Below are positions 24,135 through 32,505 of a stretch of 46,317 bases of DNA, piece after piece. This DNA is from a virus. The notes under the pieces were generated by a model. The model saw only the letters and a program-made list of their open reading frames with translations, made no database searches and was not told the DNA's origin. The DNA lies in IMG/VR virus record IMGVR_UViG_3300025853_000164, positions 1 to 46,317 of that record; one strand, 5' to 3'. Position 1 is the stretch's first letter; each line of letters starts with the position of its first letter. A program made the position numbers and the translations under genes.

Positions 24135-24857
24135 ATGCCTTTACCAAAAATTAATACCCCAACCTATGAGTTGGAATTGCCTTCTAATGGAAAAAAAATC
24201 AAGTATCGTCCTTTCCTTGTAAGAGAAGAAAAAATCCTTATTATGGCGCTGGAATCTGAAGATATGAAGCAGATTTCTAATGCAATTAAAACTGTTATTT
24301 CCGACTGTATCCTTACAAGAGGAATTAAGATTAATGATCTTTCTACTTTTGATATTGAGTATATATTCTTAAATGTAAGAGCGAAATCTGTTGGAGAATC
24401 TGTTGAGGTTAATGTCACTTGTCCTGACGATGGAGAAACACAAGTTCAGGTAGAAATTGATATTGATAGCATTCGTGTTCAAAAGAATCCAAAGCACACC
24501 AATATCATTAAACTAGATGATGATCTTTCCCTCAAAATGAAATATCCCTCTCTGAATCAGTTTGTTGAAAGTAATTTCGAAACATCAAACAATGATAGTG
24601 ATGTTGATAAATCACTTGATGTAATTGTTTCTTGTATTGATACGATTTATAATGAAGAAGAATCTTGGTCTGCATCAGATTCTACAAAAAAAGAATTGCA
24701 AGAATTTGTAGATCAGATGAATACAAAACAATTTAAAGAGATTGAGAAGTTTTTTGAGACTATGCCAAAGTTATCTCATATCATTGAAGTAACAAATCCC
24801 AATACAAAAGTGAAAAGTGAAGTTGTTCTGGAGGGTCTGGCAAGTTTTTTCAGCTAG
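24135..24857 (+). CDS. 26: Baseplate hub assembly protein gp26-like
   Basis: A 240-residue protein. The start (MPLPKINTPTYELELPSNGK, then KIKYRPFLVREEKILIMALE) and VTCPDDGETQVQVEIDID match the T4 baseplate protein family that includes gp26. In T4, gp26 acts with gp51 in hub assembly and is now viewed as a tail-assembly chaperone. It is followed three bases later by a 59-codon gene and then by a tape-measure-like gene, the same order as chaperone genes in other tailed phages. Confidence 0.8.
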   Translation: MPLPKINTPTYELELPSNGKKIKYRPFLVREEKILIMALESEDMKQISNAIKTVISDCILTRGIKINDLSTFDIEYIFLNVRAKSVGESVEVNVTCPDDGETQVQVEIDIDSIRVQKNPKHTNIIKLDDDLSLKMKYPSLNQFVESNFETSNNDSDVDKSLDVIVSCIDTIYNEEESWSASDSTKKELQEFVDQMNTKQFKEIEKFFETMPKLSHIIEVTNPNTKVKSEVVLEGLASFFS

Positions 24858-24859
24858 CG

Positions 24860-25039
24860 ATGGCGCATGAAAGTCTTGAGAACTTTTATAAGACCAATTT
24901 TGCCTTGATGCAACATCATAAATACTCATTAACAGAGTTGGAAAATATGATACCTTGGGAAAGAGAAATTTATGTATCTCTTCTCCAGCAATATATTGAG
25001 GAAGAAAACCTGAAGTATCAGCAAAAGAATGGCATTTAG
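24860..25039 (+). CDS. Small hub assembly / tail chaperone protein, gp51-like
   Basis: A 59-residue protein (MAHESLENFYKTNFALMQHH at the start) with ELENMIPWEREIYVSLL and an acidic helical end. It begins three bases after the gp26 stop and overlaps the following gene by 11 bp. I recall similar short proteins annotated as gp51 hub assembly catalyst in cyanophages, although T4 gp51 is far longer. The WE-containing motif and position resemble the second tail-assembly chaperone (G/T type) of other phages. Confidence 0.65.
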   Translation: MAHESLENFYKTNFALMQHHKYSLTELENMIPWEREIYVSLLQQYIEEENLKYQQKNGI

Positions 25040-26690
25040 TAGTCAGGCATTTAGGGCACCATCGTTAACATCAAGACCTAAATTGGGGAAGACTACTGTT
25101 TCCTCTTCAGTTTTTCGTGGAACTGCTGCGGCAGTAAGTTCCCCCAAGGCTATGAAAGTTCCCAAAGGAATGGGGTATGATAGCATTTATCGTGGTTCTA
25201 ATGTAGATCCTAAAAATCTAAAGCAAGAATCTACACCTGTTGAACAAACTCTAGTAGAAACAAATAGAATTCTTGTAGAAATACAAAACCAGTTAGCGAT
25301 TGATTTTGCCTCTAGGATTGCGAGAGATAAAGAAGAAGTTAATAAAATAAGAGCAGTATCCGATAAAAAGAAAAGAGCAGAAGCAGAAAAGGGTGCTGAG
25401 GCAGTCAAAAAAACTGGTGGTATTATAAGTGGAATAGGCAATAAAATACTTGCTCCTGCAAAGGGAATATTTGATAAGATAAAAGATTTTTTAGCAATAG
25501 TCCTTACTGGATTTTTAGTTAATAAAGCACTTCCTTGGTTGGCGGCAAATCAAGGCATTATTGATGGGATATTTAAGTTTCTTGCCAATCATTGGAAGAA
25601 GATACTTTATTTGATTGGTGGTATAATAATATTCAAGGTTGTTCGTAAGATTATAAAAATCTTTAAGGCAGTCAAGGCTGTTGCAAAGTTCTTAAAGAAT
25701 GGAATAAAAGCATTATTCAATATCTTCCGAAAAGGTGGAAGAGTGATGGGTGCTATGAGAGGAGCACTCAAAGGTGGACAAGGAGTAAAAGGTGCATTAA
25801 AAGCAGGACAGAAGGCATCACAAAGGTTTGGTGCAAAAGCGGCACAATCTGCGGCAAAGAAAGCAGCAGCAAAAACTGCCGCAAAAGCGGGTGCAAAGGG
25901 TCTTGGTAAAGCGGTATTGAAAAAGATTCCTCTGATTGGATTGGGTGCTGGTATATTGTTTGGTGCTCAAAGAGCACTTGCTGGTGACTTTGTGGGTGCT
26001 GGTATGGAACTGGCATCTGGTGCTTCTGGAACTGTTCCTGGTTTGGGAACTGCTGCATCTGTTGCGATTGATGCGGCACTAGTAGCAAAAGATGTTGGTG
26101 CATTTGATGGTGTCGGAAAAGACGGAACAGTTCTAGGAAAAGATGTTGGCGACAAAGACACAGTTGATACCAAGTTAACTGTTGGTGAAACAGTTGTACC
26201 CAAAAAACAAAGTAAAGAATTTAAACCGTTCCTAAACGATATCATCAATAATGAAGGTGCATTGTTTAAGGCAATGGATTTGTCATTTAAGATGCAAGAA
26301 CAAAACATTAAAATGTTTACCGATATAAATGAAAAGTTTGATAATGTTCTGACATCCTTTGACAATATTATTGATGGTATGAAATCTAGTAGCACAACAA
26401 TTAGTACTGGTGGAGGGGGTGGAGGCACTTCTGCAAGCACAGCAGCAGCATCTATATCTCCACCTACTACTGGTGGAGGAGACACATCACAAAAACTAAC
26501 ACCGCCTATGGATGATGGTGAAGGAACAATCACCACATTACCAATGTTGCCAGATACTTCATCAAATATTTCTGAGGCAAAAGCAGCAGCACCACAAGGT
26601 GGAGATTCTGTTCCTGTTCTGGATGCCGAAGATTCTGATAATTTCTATGTTGAATTTATGAAAAAACAATTTGGAATATTTGGAGCTTAG
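25029..26690 (+). CDS. Tape-measure / hub-like tail protein
   Basis: A 553-residue protein. It has a coiled, charged section (about 75-120) and then several hydrophobic stretches (FLAIVLTGFLVNKALPWLAA; KILYLIGGIIIFKVV; IPLIGLGAGILFGA). An Ala/Lys-rich repeat (about 225-295, with AQSAAKKAAAKTAAKAGAKG) and a low-complexity Gly/Thr region near 465 follow. Helical repeats with embedded hydrophobic segments, together with the gene order gp26, gp51-like, this gene, fit the tape-measure role of T4 gp29. Similarity to gp29 itself cannot be shown by eye. Confidence 0.55.
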   Translation: MAFSSQAFRAPSLTSRPKLGKTTVSSSVFRGTAAAVSSPKAMKVPKGMGYDSIYRGSNVDPKNLKQESTPVEQTLVETNRILVEIQNQLAIDFASRIARDKEEVNKIRAVSDKKKRAEAEKGAEAVKKTGGIISGIGNKILAPAKGIFDKIKDFLAIVLTGFLVNKALPWLAANQGIIDGIFKFLANHWKKILYLIGGIIIFKVVRKIIKIFKAVKAVAKFLKNGIKALFNIFRKGGRVMGAMRGALKGGQGVKGALKAGQKASQRFGAKAAQSAAKKAAAKTAAKAGAKGLGKAVLKKIPLIGLGAGILFGAQRALAGDFVGAGMELASGASGTVPGLGTAASVAIDAALVAKDVGAFDGVGKDGTVLGKDVGDKDTVDTKLTVGETVVPKKQSKEFKPFLNDIINNEGALFKAMDLSFKMQEQNIKMFTDINEKFDNVLTSFDNIIDGMKSSSTTISTGGGGGGTSASTAAASISPPTTGGGDTSQKLTPPMDDGEGTITTLPMLPDTSSNISEAKAAAPQGGDSVPVLDAEDSDNFYVEFMKKQFGIFGA

Positions 26691-26693
26691 TAA

Positions 26694-28271
26694 ATGGAAA
26701 CCAGACAGGTAGAACAACTAAAACTAAATGTTACAAATATAAAAAGTTTCTTAGTATCTTCAAATAAAGAAAGTCAAAAGATTTCGGCACAAAAGTCTTC
26801 ACTTATAAGAAGACAAGAACAATCTGAGAAAAGAAAATTAAAAGAAAAAAATATAGAAAGTGTTCCTGGTTCTGGAACTGCCGGAAATATTTTTAGTAAG
26901 ATTACCAGTCCTGCCACTAGTTTTCTTGATAAGATATTAAATTTTGCGGGAAGTATTTTACTTGGTGTAATTGTGAATAACTTACCTGCAATAATAGCAA
27001 AAGCAGAAGAAGTTATTAATGTTGTTAAACCACTTTGGGATGGAGCAGTAAAAACTATTGGATTTATATTCAATACTTCTAAGACCATATTTGAGGGTGT
27101 AGTATCGTTCTTTAATCCCAAAAAAGTAGAGAGTGAGACGCAAGAAGTTACCGCAGAATTAAACTCATTGGAAAAAGAACTTGACTTTGATGAAAATATA
27201 TTGGGAAATCTTGGACCTCTTCCATCCGAAGAAGAGTTTGAGCAGGATGAGGTTGAAGAAATAACTGAGAAAGTTCCAGAACCAGTTAAAACTATAATTC
27301 CGGTAATTCCTTTCAGTCCACCAGAACCCCAAAAGAGAAATGAGGGTGGGGAAATTATTAGAACAACGCAACCAAATCAATCACCTCCCAAATCTTCTGA
27401 GAATATTAGGCACCCATTCCAAAGATTATATAATAATGTTCATATGAATCGTGATACATTAGAATTATACAGAAAAAATATAGACAAATATGAAAAGATT
27501 AATGAAAAACTTAAAGGTATTAGTCTCGGAGGAGGAGCACCTACTAGTGGAGGACCTCCTTTCAGTCCCGATCAAACACCAGTACCAGTAAATGTTGGAC
27601 CAATAAAACCAGGAGGAATGTTAGATTTTATAGGACATGGTGATGGTGCCACTGGTAGATTGATATTGAAAGATGCTAGCGGTAAGAAAGTCGGTAGTTG
27701 GGAAGCTATCAGTGGTGTTCTAAGAACTGCTGGAACATCGCAAGCAGAAAGAACAAATGTTTCTGGTAGATTATATCCACTTCCCGATGGAACCTATCCT
27801 TTGGTTGCATATGCAAGACACGGATTTGTTAAGGGAGTTGGAACCTGGTCCACTTTTATTAATAATGCTTCTGGCGCAATCGGAAGAAGAAGTGCTGTTA
27901 TGGTTCATAATGATATTGGTAGTAATGGAACAGCAGGTTGTATCGGTGTTGAACTTGGAGGAACATCTGGAACTAAGGCAGAACAAGCATTTTTAACTTT
28001 ATATGAGGCAGTAAAACCAACATCGGTAAATGTTTCAATAGGAAAGGGTGCTAAAAAGAATCAAAGTTTGAAACCCAAACCAAGAGTGACACCTGATAAT
28101 GTTCCAGTATCGCAAGCACAAAAGAATAAAGGTAAGACGAAGACTGTTATTATTCCAGTAGAAGTCTCAAAACCTGTCCCAATTTCAACTAGTTCTAATA
28201 ATGGATCTACTATATTAAATACTTCTAAGTCTAGATCTAGAACATCAAATTCTCTTCACAACATACCATAA
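26694..28271 (+). CDS. Tail protein with L,D-transpeptidase-like domain
   Basis: A 525-residue protein. The first 150 residues have a coiled segment and a hydrophobic stretch (FLDKILNFAGSILLGVIVNN), as in the preceding tape-measure-like protein. Residues about 145-250 are acidic and proline-rich. Residues about 300-455 form a separate domain with GRLYPLPDGTYPL, GRRSAVMVHNDIGSNGTAGC (about 397-416) and then IGVELGG. The H405-X10-C416 pattern in a GxxH...GC context resembles the active site of YkuD or DUF2778 peptidoglycan enzymes. If real, the domain could act on the cell wall at injection. The family match is by motif only. Confidence 0.55.
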   Translation: METRQVEQLKLNVTNIKSFLVSSNKESQKISAQKSSLIRRQEQSEKRKLKEKNIESVPGSGTAGNIFSKITSPATSFLDKILNFAGSILLGVIVNNLPAIIAKAEEVINVVKPLWDGAVKTIGFIFNTSKTIFEGVVSFFNPKKVESETQEVTAELNSLEKELDFDENILGNLGPLPSEEEFEQDEVEEITEKVPEPVKTIIPVIPFSPPEPQKRNEGGEIIRTTQPNQSPPKSSENIRHPFQRLYNNVHMNRDTLELYRKNIDKYEKINEKLKGISLGGGAPTSGGPPFSPDQTPVPVNVGPIKPGGMLDFIGHGDGATGRLILKDASGKKVGSWEAISGVLRTAGTSQAERTNVSGRLYPLPDGTYPLVAYARHGFVKGVGTWSTFINNASGAIGRRSAVMVHNDIGSNGTAGCIGVELGGTSGTKAEQAFLTLYEAVKPTSVNVSIGKGAKKNQSLKPKPRVTPDNVPVSQAQKNKGKTKTVIIPVEVSKPVPISTSSNNGSTILNTSKSRSRTSNSLHNIP

Positions 28272-29606
28272 ATGTCAGCAGCACAAAGTTCTATATACGA
28301 GAAGTTTATAATCATATCAGCAGACGGACAAAATCGTGCTGATATTGCTGAGGCACAGTTTAGAGTTATAAGTTTTGATTACTACGAGAATATCTTATCC
28401 CCCTATATTACTGGGACGGTGGTTATATCAAGCACCTCTGGTTCTGCAAAATCAAACGATGATAAGCAAAACAGATTGGGAGCACTTCATAGTTCATTAC
28501 CTCTTCGTGCTGGTTGTACTCTTCTTGTAAAAATAAAAACAGAAGTTGGTGAGGCATTGAATTTTTCTGTAGAATCTGATGAGTATAAAAAACTCTATGT
28601 AACTGATGTGAGTGTCCTTGATAAAAATTCCACATCAGAAACATTACAAATTAGATTTGCATCTAGAACTGCATGGTTAAATGAGACTAATAAAATAACT
28701 AGAAGATTTACTGGAAGCATTAGCGATTCCGTCAAAAAAATACTTAAGGTTGACTTATCTTTTAAGGATGAGCAAATAAAGATTGATCCCTCTAGTAATT
28801 CATATTCTTTTGAGGGTATGAGAAAGAGACCGCTTGATTTGATTTCTATGCTTTGTATTAGAACCGTTCCATCAAGTGTCACAAATCCTGGTTATTTCTG
28901 CTATGAGACAAGAAATGGATTCAATTTTGTTTCGGCAGATAGTTTAATCAATCAGGATCCATTTGAAAGAGTTTATACTTACAATGGAAAAGTGGTGGCA
29001 TCCGCAGAATTGAAAGACGATTCTAATAACTATAAGATTGCATCCCTGAACACTCTTAAAGATCAAAGTCTTTTGTCTCAAATTCGTACCGGAGTTTATT
29101 CGTCAAAGAATGTATTTTTCAATCCTGCCACCTATGGATTTACGGAGATTGATATTTCCGTTGAGGATAAGAAATTAACACAAGACCCTAAGTTTTCTTC
29201 ACTAGGTAAAAAAGAAGGAGCACCACAATTCTTGTTTGGAGGTAAGAACGGAAAGAAATATCACAGAATACAATCGGCAATTTTTAATGTGGGTGCAGAA
29301 GGATTGTCAAAGGATGTAAATAATAGTCCGGAACTATATTATGCTGCTGGAAGCACGAGATATAATATTATGTTCTCGCAGATTCATTCTGTGACCATTC
29401 CTTGTAATACAGATCTTGAAGCAGGCGGATTGCTTAAATTAGAAATTGAATCTAATTCTCAAGATAAAGAACAAGGACCAGATGAAGTTCAGAGTGGAAA
29501 CTATATAATTCAGGCACTCCGTCATCACTTTGACCCAAATAAATCCACCACATCAATGAATTTAATTCGTGATTCTTATGGTTTACACTTTACCAAATCC
29601 AATTAA
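28272..29606 (+). CDS. Baseplate hub protein, gp27-like
   Basis: A 444-residue protein whose ATG directly follows the stop of the gene before it. Features include YEKFIIISADGQNRADIAEA and FRVISFDYYENILSPYITGT at the start, LYVTDVSVLDKNSTSETLQI, and YIIQALRHHFDPN near the end. These resemble hub proteins of the gp27/gp44 type, which form the ring that holds the spike. The next gene encodes a spike OB-fold, which supports the call. A structural hub role is likely; identity with gp27 is not certain. Confidence 0.65.
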   Translation: MSAAQSSIYEKFIIISADGQNRADIAEAQFRVISFDYYENILSPYITGTVVISSTSGSAKSNDDKQNRLGALHSSLPLRAGCTLLVKIKTEVGEALNFSVESDEYKKLYVTDVSVLDKNSTSETLQIRFASRTAWLNETNKITRRFTGSISDSVKKILKVDLSFKDEQIKIDPSSNSYSFEGMRKRPLDLISMLCIRTVPSSVTNPGYFCYETRNGFNFVSADSLINQDPFERVYTYNGKVVASAELKDDSNNYKIASLNTLKDQSLLSQIRTGVYSSKNVFFNPATYGFTEIDISVEDKKLTQDPKFSSLGKKEGAPQFLFGGKNGKKYHRIQSAIFNVGAEGLSKDVNNSPELYYAAGSTRYNIMFSQIHSVTIPCNTDLEAGGLLKLEIESNSQDKEQGPDEVQSGNYIIQALRHHFDPNKSTTSMNLIRDSYGLHFTKSN

Positions 29607-29614
29607 TAAGTCTA

Positions 29615-30418
29615 ATGGAATCTAATAACACTGATGGTATAAAATTTTTTGGTGCTAACTCCAACGAATGGATAGGTATTGTATTGAGTGCCGAATCTCA
29701 GAAAGAACAAATACAAGGAACTGGTGGTTTTGGGTGTAGATATAAAGTCGCAATAATGGGGCACCACCCAACAGACCAGGCAGAAATTAAGGATGAAGAT
29801 ATTACATATGCACTAGTTCAGTTTGGTGTATGTGACGGCAGTGGTGCCGCAAATAAAATGAGAACACCAAGAATATCTCAGGGTGACGTTGTAAGAGGAA
29901 AGTTCCTGGATGGCTCTGGTAAACAACAACCAATTATTGAGGGTGTTCTTGGTAGAACTTCTGGCACTCGTTATGGTAAGGGAAGATTTGAGTCTAAAAC
30001 TGGATTTTGGGGAGGATTAAAACCAGGAAATCTTTTAGAGAGAGATGAGGCAAACGAGACCAGTACTCCTCCTTGTGTTCCAAAAGCAATACCAAAGGGT
30101 TCTGGTAGTGACAAGACTGCTAAAAGAGAGACGGATAAGGAAGCACTAAAAGCAGCAGGAATTGACCCAGATGGAGAACCAAAGGTTGGAGAAGTTAAAA
30201 AACCAGAAGGTAATGGTTTAACGGCAGAAGAACAGGCAGAGATATTAAAAGAACAACAAACTGGCACAGTGAAAACTGACGAACAACTCCAAGCAGAAGA
30301 AGGTGGTCCATCTAACACTGTTCCAACCGAAGAAGTAGAAACCAGAGAACAACGCCAAGAAAGAGAAGATAGGGAAGCAGCACAGGCACTGCTAGATTCT
30401 GGCGAATTCCTGTTCTAA
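29615..30418 (+). CDS. Baseplate spike OB-fold protein, gp5-like without lysozyme
   Basis: A 267-residue protein. The N-terminal half carries an OB-fold pattern (NEWIGIVLSAESQKEQ; CRYKVAIMGHHP; ALVQFGVCDG; ISQGDVVRGKFLDGSGKQQP; IIEGVLGRT) like the spike base of T4 gp5. The C-terminal half (about 135-267) is low-complexity and charged (KKPEGNGLTAEEQAEILKEQ; EVETREQRQEREDREAAQAL). The lysozyme domain and triple beta-helix of T4 gp5 are absent. It lies between the hub-like gene and a gene with a beta-helix-like product. Confidence 0.65.
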   Translation: MESNNTDGIKFFGANSNEWIGIVLSAESQKEQIQGTGGFGCRYKVAIMGHHPTDQAEIKDEDITYALVQFGVCDGSGAANKMRTPRISQGDVVRGKFLDGSGKQQPIIEGVLGRTSGTRYGKGRFESKTGFWGGLKPGNLLERDEANETSTPPCVPKAIPKGSGSDKTAKRETDKEALKAAGIDPDGEPKVGEVKKPEGNGLTAEEQAEILKEQQTGTVKTDEQLQAEEGGPSNTVPTEEVETREQRQEREDREAAQALLDSGEFLF

Positions 30419-30442
30419 ATATCAACACGGAGGAAAATATCT

Positions 30443-31918
30443 ATGAGTTGCGCCAGAGCCGAATCACTAACATCAGGCAATATTATTATATCCGCAGATC
30501 CCTGTAAGGATAATACCTTTGCTAGAATAGAAGCATACCTTACTAACTTTTTTGATCGTCTATCAAAGATACAGGGTGCGGTTGATAATCTTCAGAACGA
30601 GATTAGATCTGTTGTTAAAGTTATTGGAGATACTATAACTGGATTCGTCAATAAAATTCTTGGATCGCTGAATGATAAGATTGCCGAACTAATTCCAAAG
30701 GCAATGCAAGCATTTGAGAAATTTTTAATTGGAACTGGAAGAACAATACCAGAAATCATTGCAATTGAGACTCCCCTCATTCCTGCAGTAAAAAAACTCC
30801 TTGATGGAATTTTCTGTGCAGCAACAAAAGTAATAAAGGGTGCAAAAGATGCACTGACCGACTTAATCACTGGTGCCGTTAAGAACGTTCTGAATGCCTC
30901 TGCTTGCGTAGTAGAAAATATCATTGGTGGATTTACCAATAACCTGATTAATACAGTTGATTCTATCGTTGGTCCATTACTAGAACCAATCACTGGAATT
31001 TTAGGAACATTCTTTAAGTTTGATCTGAAGAATTTCCTTGTTACAGGAATCAATGCAGTAAGAAAAATTCAGAATCTTTTTGAGTGTGATGAAGAGAAGA
31101 TTTGCCCAGCATCAACCAAATACAAGATTGATCAGGGTCCTCTAAAAGATATGAGTGAAGAGGACCAGGACAGTGCATTTAATAGAGTCTTCAGTGGAGT
31201 TGCACTTTCTCAGGGAGCAAAGAATCTTCAGTCAGACTTTGAGAAGAAATATGGTAAGTGGAGTGTATTTGGTGCTCCATTGGGTGAGGCATCAGATCTT
31301 GGACCTTGCAACTTTGGTAATGTAACCGAATGTGGATTACCTACGGCAACTATTTTTGGTGGAGATGGATTTGGTGCCGCTGGTAATGTAATTCTTGGAA
31401 AGATTATTGAGAATGTAGATACTGAGGATGCTGTCGGATCTGTAATTAAGACTGGAAGTATCGTCGGTGTTGATATTACAAATCCAGGACAAGGATACTT
31501 GGATACACCACTAATATCGTTCCAAGATGGTTGTAACAAGGGATATGGTGCTTATGGTAGATGTATTGTTGACCGCAATCCATCTTCTCCCACCTACGGA
31601 CAAATTACCGGAGTGGTAATGATAAGCGAAGGTGAAAATTATCCTGCCGATATTGATGAATTACCACTTTATATTAAGGGTGTCGTAATTGAGGATCCTG
31701 GTTCTAATTATGAAGAAGATGATACTGTTGAGGGTCTTGACCTAACAATCAGAGATGGAAGAGTTGTTGCCGCAACTATTAAACCTGGATTCGGATACAA
31801 TGGACTGCCAGACCTAAATATCAATAGTGATACTGGATTTGGAGCAGTATTGAGACCTATTATGACTGTTGCAACTCCACAAACAGAAATCGTCCAAGTC
31901 ATAGATTGTATTAGTTAA
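30443..31918 (+). CDS. Conserved virion structural protein
   Basis: A 491-residue protein with a GGAGG ribosome binding site. Residues 1-210 are helical and rich in amphipathic stretches (DNLQNEIRSVVKVIGDTITG; FTNNLINTVDSIVGPLLEP). Residues about 330-480 contain repeated beta motifs (VDITNPGQGYLDTPLISF; VVIEDPGSNYEEDDTVEG; AATIKPGFGYNGLPDLN), also seen in other cyanophage structural proteins. Ten or so cysteines are present, more than usual in a virion protein. Its place between spike genes suggests a hub or tail-tip component. Function unknown. Confidence 0.6.
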   Translation: MSCARAESLTSGNIIISADPCKDNTFARIEAYLTNFFDRLSKIQGAVDNLQNEIRSVVKVIGDTITGFVNKILGSLNDKIAELIPKAMQAFEKFLIGTGRTIPEIIAIETPLIPAVKKLLDGIFCAATKVIKGAKDALTDLITGAVKNVLNASACVVENIIGGFTNNLINTVDSIVGPLLEPITGILGTFFKFDLKNFLVTGINAVRKIQNLFECDEEKICPASTKYKIDQGPLKDMSEEDQDSAFNRVFSGVALSQGAKNLQSDFEKKYGKWSVFGAPLGEASDLGPCNFGNVTECGLPTATIFGGDGFGAAGNVILGKIIENVDTEDAVGSVIKTGSIVGVDITNPGQGYLDTPLISFQDGCNKGYGAYGRCIVDRNPSSPTYGQITGVVMISEGENYPADIDELPLYIKGVVIEDPGSNYEEDDTVEGLDLTIRDGRVVAATIKPGFGYNGLPDLNINSDTGFGAVLRPIMTVATPQTEIVQVIDCIS

Positions 31919-31920
31919 TT

Positions 31921-32505
31921 ATGGGGCAGGAAACTAGGACTACGGAGGTATTAGGACCAAAGTGTGTAATAGAAACTGGCAATCCTCAAATGGGAATGTC
32001 AGGTAGAGATTCTACTAAAATATTATGCACTAATGATATGGCAATGAGATTTATTTTATCTCATACTGAAAGTGGTTTGAGTAAAATAACGACAGAGGGT
32101 ACAGTACTAGTTGAGGCAGCTTCCAGTCCCAAATTGTCAGAAGGAGTAACAGCATATAAGATTATTGCCCATAAAGGAGACTTTGACTTAAATGTTGATA
32201 AGGGAAGCACAAAAGTATATGCCAGACAGATAACTCTTCAAGCAAGTAAAGAGATTGTTATTGATGCTCCGAGTATAAGAATTGGTTCTGATAATGAGAA
32301 TGTTACTAAAGATATTAAAATTATTGGACAACACGTAGATATTAAGTCAAAAAAAGGAAATTTAGCAAATAGTTTAATGGAAAGCAGTTACTTAAAGGCA
32401 TTTGACGGAACTTTGGTTTCTGACCTTGCACTTATTGCCTCTGGTTCTCCATTGGCAGCTGCTGCCAAAGTCGGTGCAGAAGTAGCGAAAAAACTTTTTG
32501 GGTAA
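31921..32505 (+). CDS. Spike beta-helix-like structural protein
   Basis: A 194-residue protein. The middle (about 85-150) alternates short strands with regular spacing (DFDLNVDKGSTKVYARQITL; ASKEIVIDAPSIRIGSD; DIKIIGQHVDIKSKKGN), the pattern of the triple-stranded beta-helix of gp5 and VgrG-type spikes. It ends in a helical, Ala-rich segment. With the OB-fold protein two genes upstream it could form a spike made from two polypeptides. The assignment is structural inference. Confidence 0.55.
   Translation: MGQETRTTEVLGPKCVIETGNPQMGMSGRDSTKILCTNDMAMRFILSHTESGLSKITTEGTVLVEAASSPKLSEGVTAYKIIAHKGDFDLNVDKGSTKVYARQITLQASKEIVIDAPSIRIGSDNENVTKDIKIIGQHVDIKSKKGNLANSLMESSYLKAFDGTLVSDLALIASGSPLAAAAKVGAEVAKKLFG

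Follow-up and report, generated by a model that had tools for sequence, protein, structure and literature searches.

Enzymes of the YkuD class carry out transpeptidation, carboxypeptidase and endopeptidase reactions (PMC12729407), and phages use this superfamily as a lytic domain: the PhaLP collection of phage lytic proteins holds ten YkuD entries, a rare class there, and the accessible part of that source singles out no conserved tail cassette in T4-like cyanophages (PMC8310338). Tlde1a, a member of the Tlde1 family (Pfam PF10908), is a type VI secretion effector with L,D-carboxypeptidase and exchange activity that is likewise delivered by a contractile tail-like machine; Csd6 is its nearest structural relative, and R115, H121, S128, H129 and C131 are its key residues (PMC9638812). 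In the Anabaena myophage A-1(L) the hub protein gp15 contains lysozyme, endoglucanase and peptidase domains, and endoglucanase and peptidase activity were demonstrated (PMC10966104). Phage YkuD-type lysins and wall hydrolases in a cyanophage hub are already on record (PMC8310338, PMC10966104). How T4-like cyanophages without a gp5 lysozyme breach the cell wall is unsettled in the literature that we found.

Here, we describe a domain of a tail protein, protein Y, encoded in a stretch of viral DNA of 46,317 nucleotides (the window, meaning the whole stretch that was analysed). With a probability of roughly two in three, this domain is a divergent cysteine enzyme with an L,D-transpeptidase fold that sits as a swappable module on a tail protein at the gp27/gp5 hub and cleaves the stem peptides of peptidoglycan as the DNA enters. 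As in A-1(L), wall-cutting domains would be built into the hub region of a cyanophage baseplate. Unlike in A-1(L), the phage belongs to another group, the domains are others and they reside in a pair of proteins, X and Y, not in the hub protein itself; an L,D-transpeptidase fold was not named for gp15.

Table 1 Features of the tail cassette and of the domain in protein Y (positions in the window).
Feature	Position	Strand	Basis or remark
gp26-like baseplate hub protein, left cassette border	24135..24857	+	phrog_150, E 4e-81
Partner tail protein X, 553 aa	25029..26690	+	Hydrophobic segments, no cysteine
Tail protein Y, 525 aa	26694..28271	+	ORF call; downstream member of the X/Y pair, which gp26 and the gp27-like hub protein flank
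L,D-transpeptidase-fold domain (predicted), residues 305-455	27606..28058	+	Alignments, AlphaFold2, Foldseek
PLPDGTYPL, residues 362-370	27777..27803	+	P362, P364, D365, G366, Y368 invariant
R399	27888..27890	+	Invariant, six residues N-terminal to the His; spacing as R115-H121 of Tlde1a (PMC9638812)
H405, predicted catalytic base	27906..27908	+	Alignments
C416, predicted nucleophile	27939..27941	+	Alignments; sole cysteine in protein Y
gp27-like hub ('tail protein'), right cassette border	28272..29606	+	phrog_350, E 4e-75; cyanophage relatives
gp5-like hub/spike, two ORFs (29615-30418, 30443-31918)	29615..31918	+	Both match phrog_1922

The initial annotation had assigned the protein to a T4-like tail whose gp5-like spike lacks lysozyme, and both statements hold: gp26-, gp27- and gp5-type matches surround protein Y (Table 1), and Pfam recognised no lysozyme domain in either gp5-like ORF. 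The gp5-like gene is split in the window and a single ORF in the cyanophages that we looked at; a 194-residue protein encoded downstream (31921-32505) has sub-threshold matches to DUF3540 and DUF2345 and is perhaps the spike tip. The gp27-like protein matched 228 phage records, nearly all of Synechococcus or Prochlorococcus phages, and short stretches of the window DNA match cyanophages; the host is therefore probably a marine cyanobacterium. Protein Y itself consists of a hydrophobic N-terminal part (about residues 60-140) with weak PHROG matches, a linker, the L,D-transpeptidase-like domain and a basic, Ser-rich tail.

Y occupies the same position in the window as in cyanophages. In cyano-T4-like phages, X and Y are flanked by gp26 on one side, frequently with gp51 after it, and by the gp27-like protein on the other; in P-SSM2 the two are T4-GC 13 and 14. 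Wherever the borders of this arrangement (gp26-X-Y-gp27) were visible, the domain was located in X or Y: in Y in the window's group, and in X in S-H34, S-N03, S-H38, P-TIM68 and most others. In various phages X and Y carry GH19, GH24, Phage_lysozyme2, M15, glucosaminidase, M23, SLT, VanY or Hydrolase_2 domains, and a glycan-cutting domain often accompanies the L,D-transpeptidase-like one. S-H34 encodes GH19 in its X protein and GH24 in its Y protein alongside it, S-H38 has Phage_lysozyme2, and in further records the partner is glucosaminidase (L010, L070), GH19 (L063) or GH24 (L084). Phages without the domain may combine SLT with VanY (DSL-LC03) or GH24 with M23 (ACG-2014f). Some partner proteins have no recognised enzyme, including X of the window, in which Pfam and PHROG searches recognised no enzyme domain. 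The domain is best read as one among several interchangeable wall-cutting modules beside the injection spike, and this cassette context supports well the earlier idea of a peptidoglycan-acting tail enzyme, as a prediction. The initial annotation also considered a cysteine enzyme of this class unusual in a T4-like tail; this stands for its position in the tail. The domain itself is nonetheless widespread among cyano-T4-like phages, and the phage lytic proteins on record include YkuD domains (PMC8310338).

The fold was predicted for two family members. AlphaFold2 gave a pLDDT of 89.8 and a pTM of 0.87 for the window domain and a pLDDT of 84.9 for a relative about 50% identical to it; the two models are not fully independent because the underlying alignments overlap. 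In Foldseek searches of the PDB the first model had Campylobacter Pgp2 on top (E 2.8e-3, probability 1.00), and the second Helicobacter Csd6, followed by Pgp2 (E 2.4e-3 to 5.8e-3, probability 0.99-1.00), whereas all other PDB matches had probabilities below 0.5. The E-values, at best 2.4e-03 to 2.8e-03, are modest, with TM-scores of about 0.5. Csd6 and Pgp2 are L,D-carboxypeptidases that adopt an L,D-transpeptidase fold. Both cellular enzymes are involved in cell shape, have extra domains and are only 11-14% identical to the phage domain. In a viral structure library the model matched a Nodularia phage endolysin (probability 1.00), a phage protein with a Tlde1 domain and a tape-measure protein. 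In the window model H405 lies in strand 99-102 and C416 immediately before strand 113-115 (model numbering). Taken together, the two models predict an L,D-transpeptidase superfamily fold, as the relatedness to YkuD or DUF2778 enzymes proposed earlier would require.

At the level of single sequences the relationship is remote. Searches of Pfam, PHROG and the PDB with the domain gave no matches, neither to YkuD (PF03734, cut-off 23.4 bits) nor to Tlde1 (cut-off 30.1 bits); an actinohivin match among the PDB sequences (E 0.95) is noise. Weak matches below the cut-offs were seen in relatives, to Tlde1 in 10 out of 36 (best E 0.0014) and to YkuD in three out of 36 (best 0.0039). A PF10908 search across whole phage records gave zero matches at an E-value of 10, and a profile of the tail family matched no PDB sequence. 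Tlde1_dom was formerly called DUF2778. Compared to the YkuD motif, H-x(n)-[S/T]-H-G-C-h, the window protein has H405...T413-A414-G415-C416-I417; the spacing is shorter than in the classic motif and the second His is absent, being replaced by A, L or Q in the tail family. With Tlde1a, the R-x5-H spacing and [ST]-x-G-C are shared, and R399, H405, T413, A414 and C416 fall into register with one additional residue between His and Cys (a spacing of 11 compared to 10), but A, L or Q stands at the position of H129.

The link to YkuD is provided by a bridging family of endolysins in Nodularia phages, S-2L, IMG/VR contigs and cyanobacterial genomes. Like the tail family, the lysozymes of Nodularia phage kac68v162 and Cyanophage S-2L and a plasmid protein of Nostoc sp. 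ATCC 53789 have a near-identical RRSAI..HID...GTAGCVG string in a C-terminal domain of similar length. Unlike Y, which is a hydrophobic tail protein, the endolysins examined are fused to a GH24 lysozyme, in Nostoc with PG_binding_1 in between, and they match YkuD far better than the window domain does: all 16 aligned members have a match (best 4.7e-07), and the Nostoc domain, with 29 bits, passes the cut-off. When the tail and endolysin profiles were compared with each other, the match was significant (probability 96.9, score 66.2, compared to at most 21.3 in 60 column-shuffled controls), with the R, H, D and GT-x-GC columns in register, H on H and C on C. This register, together with spacings like those of R115, H121, S128 and C131 in Tlde1a (PMC9638812), indirectly supports the spatial closeness of H405 and C416 that the initial annotation presupposed. 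Against a shallow alignment of 28 canonical cyanobacterial YkuD domains neither profile rose above shuffled controls, so it is the bridging family, together with fold and motif, that connects the tail family to the superfamily. YkuD proteins were found in 76 of the 98 cyanobacterial genomes sampled; many small genomes had none at the threshold used. No cellular copy of the tail-type domain turned up in a scan of genome contigs, and a second scan with the bridging Nostoc domain as query retrieved three cyanobacterial relatives. The window domain is best read as a divergent, remote family within the L,D-transpeptidase superfamily. It should be mentioned that a 411-base gene annotated without function in the Citromicrobium microvirus vB_Cib_ssDNA_P1 (record L115, 1487-1699) weakly matches the endolysin-type domain (34% identity over query residues 53-138, E 0.03); its product is possibly a tiny L,D-transpeptidase-like protein for lysis or entry.

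The boundaries and residues named by the initial annotation (a domain at about 27590-28060 with PLPDGTYPL, H405 and C416 in a 525-residue protein) were borne out. Residues 305-455 are conserved as a block in 25 loci of a first IMG/VR scan and 57 of a profile scan, and H405 and C416 are invariant in 36 aligned relatives, as are R399, D407, G412-T413 and G415. The profile scan was built on patterns around the motif and is biased towards sequences that bear it; motif-independent tblastn searches also found the domain in the named phages S-H34, S-N03, S-H38, P-TIM68, MA01, MA10, ME01 and MC09, and those matches that were read show the motif as well. The pattern R-x5-H-x(6,16)-[ST]-x-G-C, picked after the sequence was seen, occurs once in the six-frame translation of the window, and of 20,000 shuffled versions of the protein one contained it; the motif of the window protein exceeds chance. 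Relative to one homologue (L007), dN is 0.075 in the domain and 0.135 and 0.287 in the flanks, i.e., the domain changes more slowly, and its dN is well below dS.

None of the 39 distinct complete proteins bearing the domain, which are 521 to 1715 residues long, has a cysteine other than that of the motif. X and Y proteins without the domain have no cysteine at all in 21 of 25 cases checked and one or two in the other four, and the gp27-, gp26- and gp5-like proteins of the window do have cysteines. Retention of a single cysteine at the predicted nucleophile, in a class of nearly cysteine-free proteins, is strong sequence-level evidence for thiol chemistry and against a binding relic. This bears on the foremost alternative, a peptidoglycan-binding module that has kept fold and pocket and would hold the tail tip on stem peptides in a non-catalytic manner, or tether it to the wall as a long-lived acyl-enzyme. 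Such a module could explain why the motif lacks its second His and why, in S-H34 and S-H38, the domain accompanies true hydrolase domains in one protein, as a binding domain would. We nevertheless consider it unlikely: not only the cysteine but also His, Arg and Thr are invariant at the active-site positions in all 43 distinct near-full-length domain sequences, and the domain is the sole peptidoglycan-related one recognised in the cassette of the window. X and Y tail proteins are nearly cysteine-free even when they carry hydrolase domains (L131-L137, L011-L085), perhaps a general property of tail proteins in such phages.

If the domain is an enzyme, tail contraction would bring X and Y into the periplasm, where H405 would activate C416 for attack on the mDAP-D-Ala bond of the peptidoglycan stem, possibly also within cross-links. 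The acyl-enzyme formed would be resolved by water, and stem peptides trimmed or severed around the puncture would ease the passage of tube and DNA. The domain would thereby take over the peptide-cutting role that M23, M15 or VanY has in related phages, frequently with a glycan cutter in the same cassette. Computation shows the domain and its cassette position, its conservation and lone cysteine, the class of fold and the alignment of the active site; activity, bond specificity and timing we infer. Fold and active-site pattern resemble L,D-carboxypeptidases and Tlde1 more closely than cross-linking enzymes, and the L,D-carboxypeptidase resemblance suggests hydrolysis. Against this model, an L,D-carboxypeptidase that removes only D-Ala4 would not alone open the wall, and X of the window has no recognised glycan hydrolase to assist. 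The lack of a Pfam match for the window protein, the modest Foldseek values, the missing second His of SHGC and the direct comparison with canonical YkuD domains also count against it.

Cross-linkers belong to this fold class as well, and besides L,D-carboxypeptidation and exchange, Tlde1a itself cross-links slightly (PMC9638812). A strict transpeptidase would make new 3-3 links, exchange D-amino acids or attach a protein to mDAP, and so seal the injection site or stop lysis from without. That it does so is rather improbable, since the top PDB matches are L,D-carboxypeptidases and both the cassette neighbours and the bridging endolysins bear wall-degrading domains. A scenario in which such a tail enzyme remodels or re-seals the wall at the injection site, for example with 3-3 links or D-amino acids, and thus spares a thin-walled picocyanobacterium from lysis, is likewise doubtful.

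Hydrolysis at entry presupposes that Y is part of the virion. Purified virions of S-CREM2 contained both proteins annotated as 'endolysins', represented by 73 and 71 peptides, and the authors suggested a location inside the capsid as a possibility (PMC10665884). This pair directly precedes the spike genes and is the equivalent of X and Y; because of the gene position we read them as tail proteins. For Y of the window, we infer presence in the virion from its position. The nearest relatives outside tails are endolysins, as would be expected of a late-lysis module that sits in the tail gene cluster only incidentally, but the strict gp26-X-Y-gp27 location, the hydrophobic N-terminal part and the detection of the S-CREM2 pair in virions (PMC10665884) make this very unlikely. 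That the domain is an unrelated beta-rich one with a coincidental H and C would agree with the window sequence alone having no database match and is hardly credible in view of the fold matches of two family members, the bridging family and the invariant motif.

In the literature, which we covered in part, we found neither this diverged family nor its constant location in the X/Y cassette nor its lone-cysteine signature described. The data point to the X/Y pair as a carrier of exchangeable wall-cutting domains, of which an L,D-transpeptidase-class cysteine enzyme would be one common option. The domain assignment also corrects the labels 'chitinase' and 'hypothetical' of named relatives. In the RefSeq 'chitinase' proteins of S-H34 and S-N03 (L026 4945-7677 and L027 4855-7578) the L,D-transpeptidase-like domain is unannotated; the label in S-H34 is due to a separate GH19 domain in the same protein and not to this one.

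Across 12 cyanophages the lengths of X and Y, which range from 320 to 1565 residues, correlate with a Pearson r of 0.93; the set includes the window (25029-28271), L026, L028, L029 and L131-L137, and part of the length is contributed by the enzyme domains. The longest pair is that of S-CREM2, a phage whose tail is reportedly the longest among cyanomyoviruses. It is conceivable that X and Y form or replace the tape measure.
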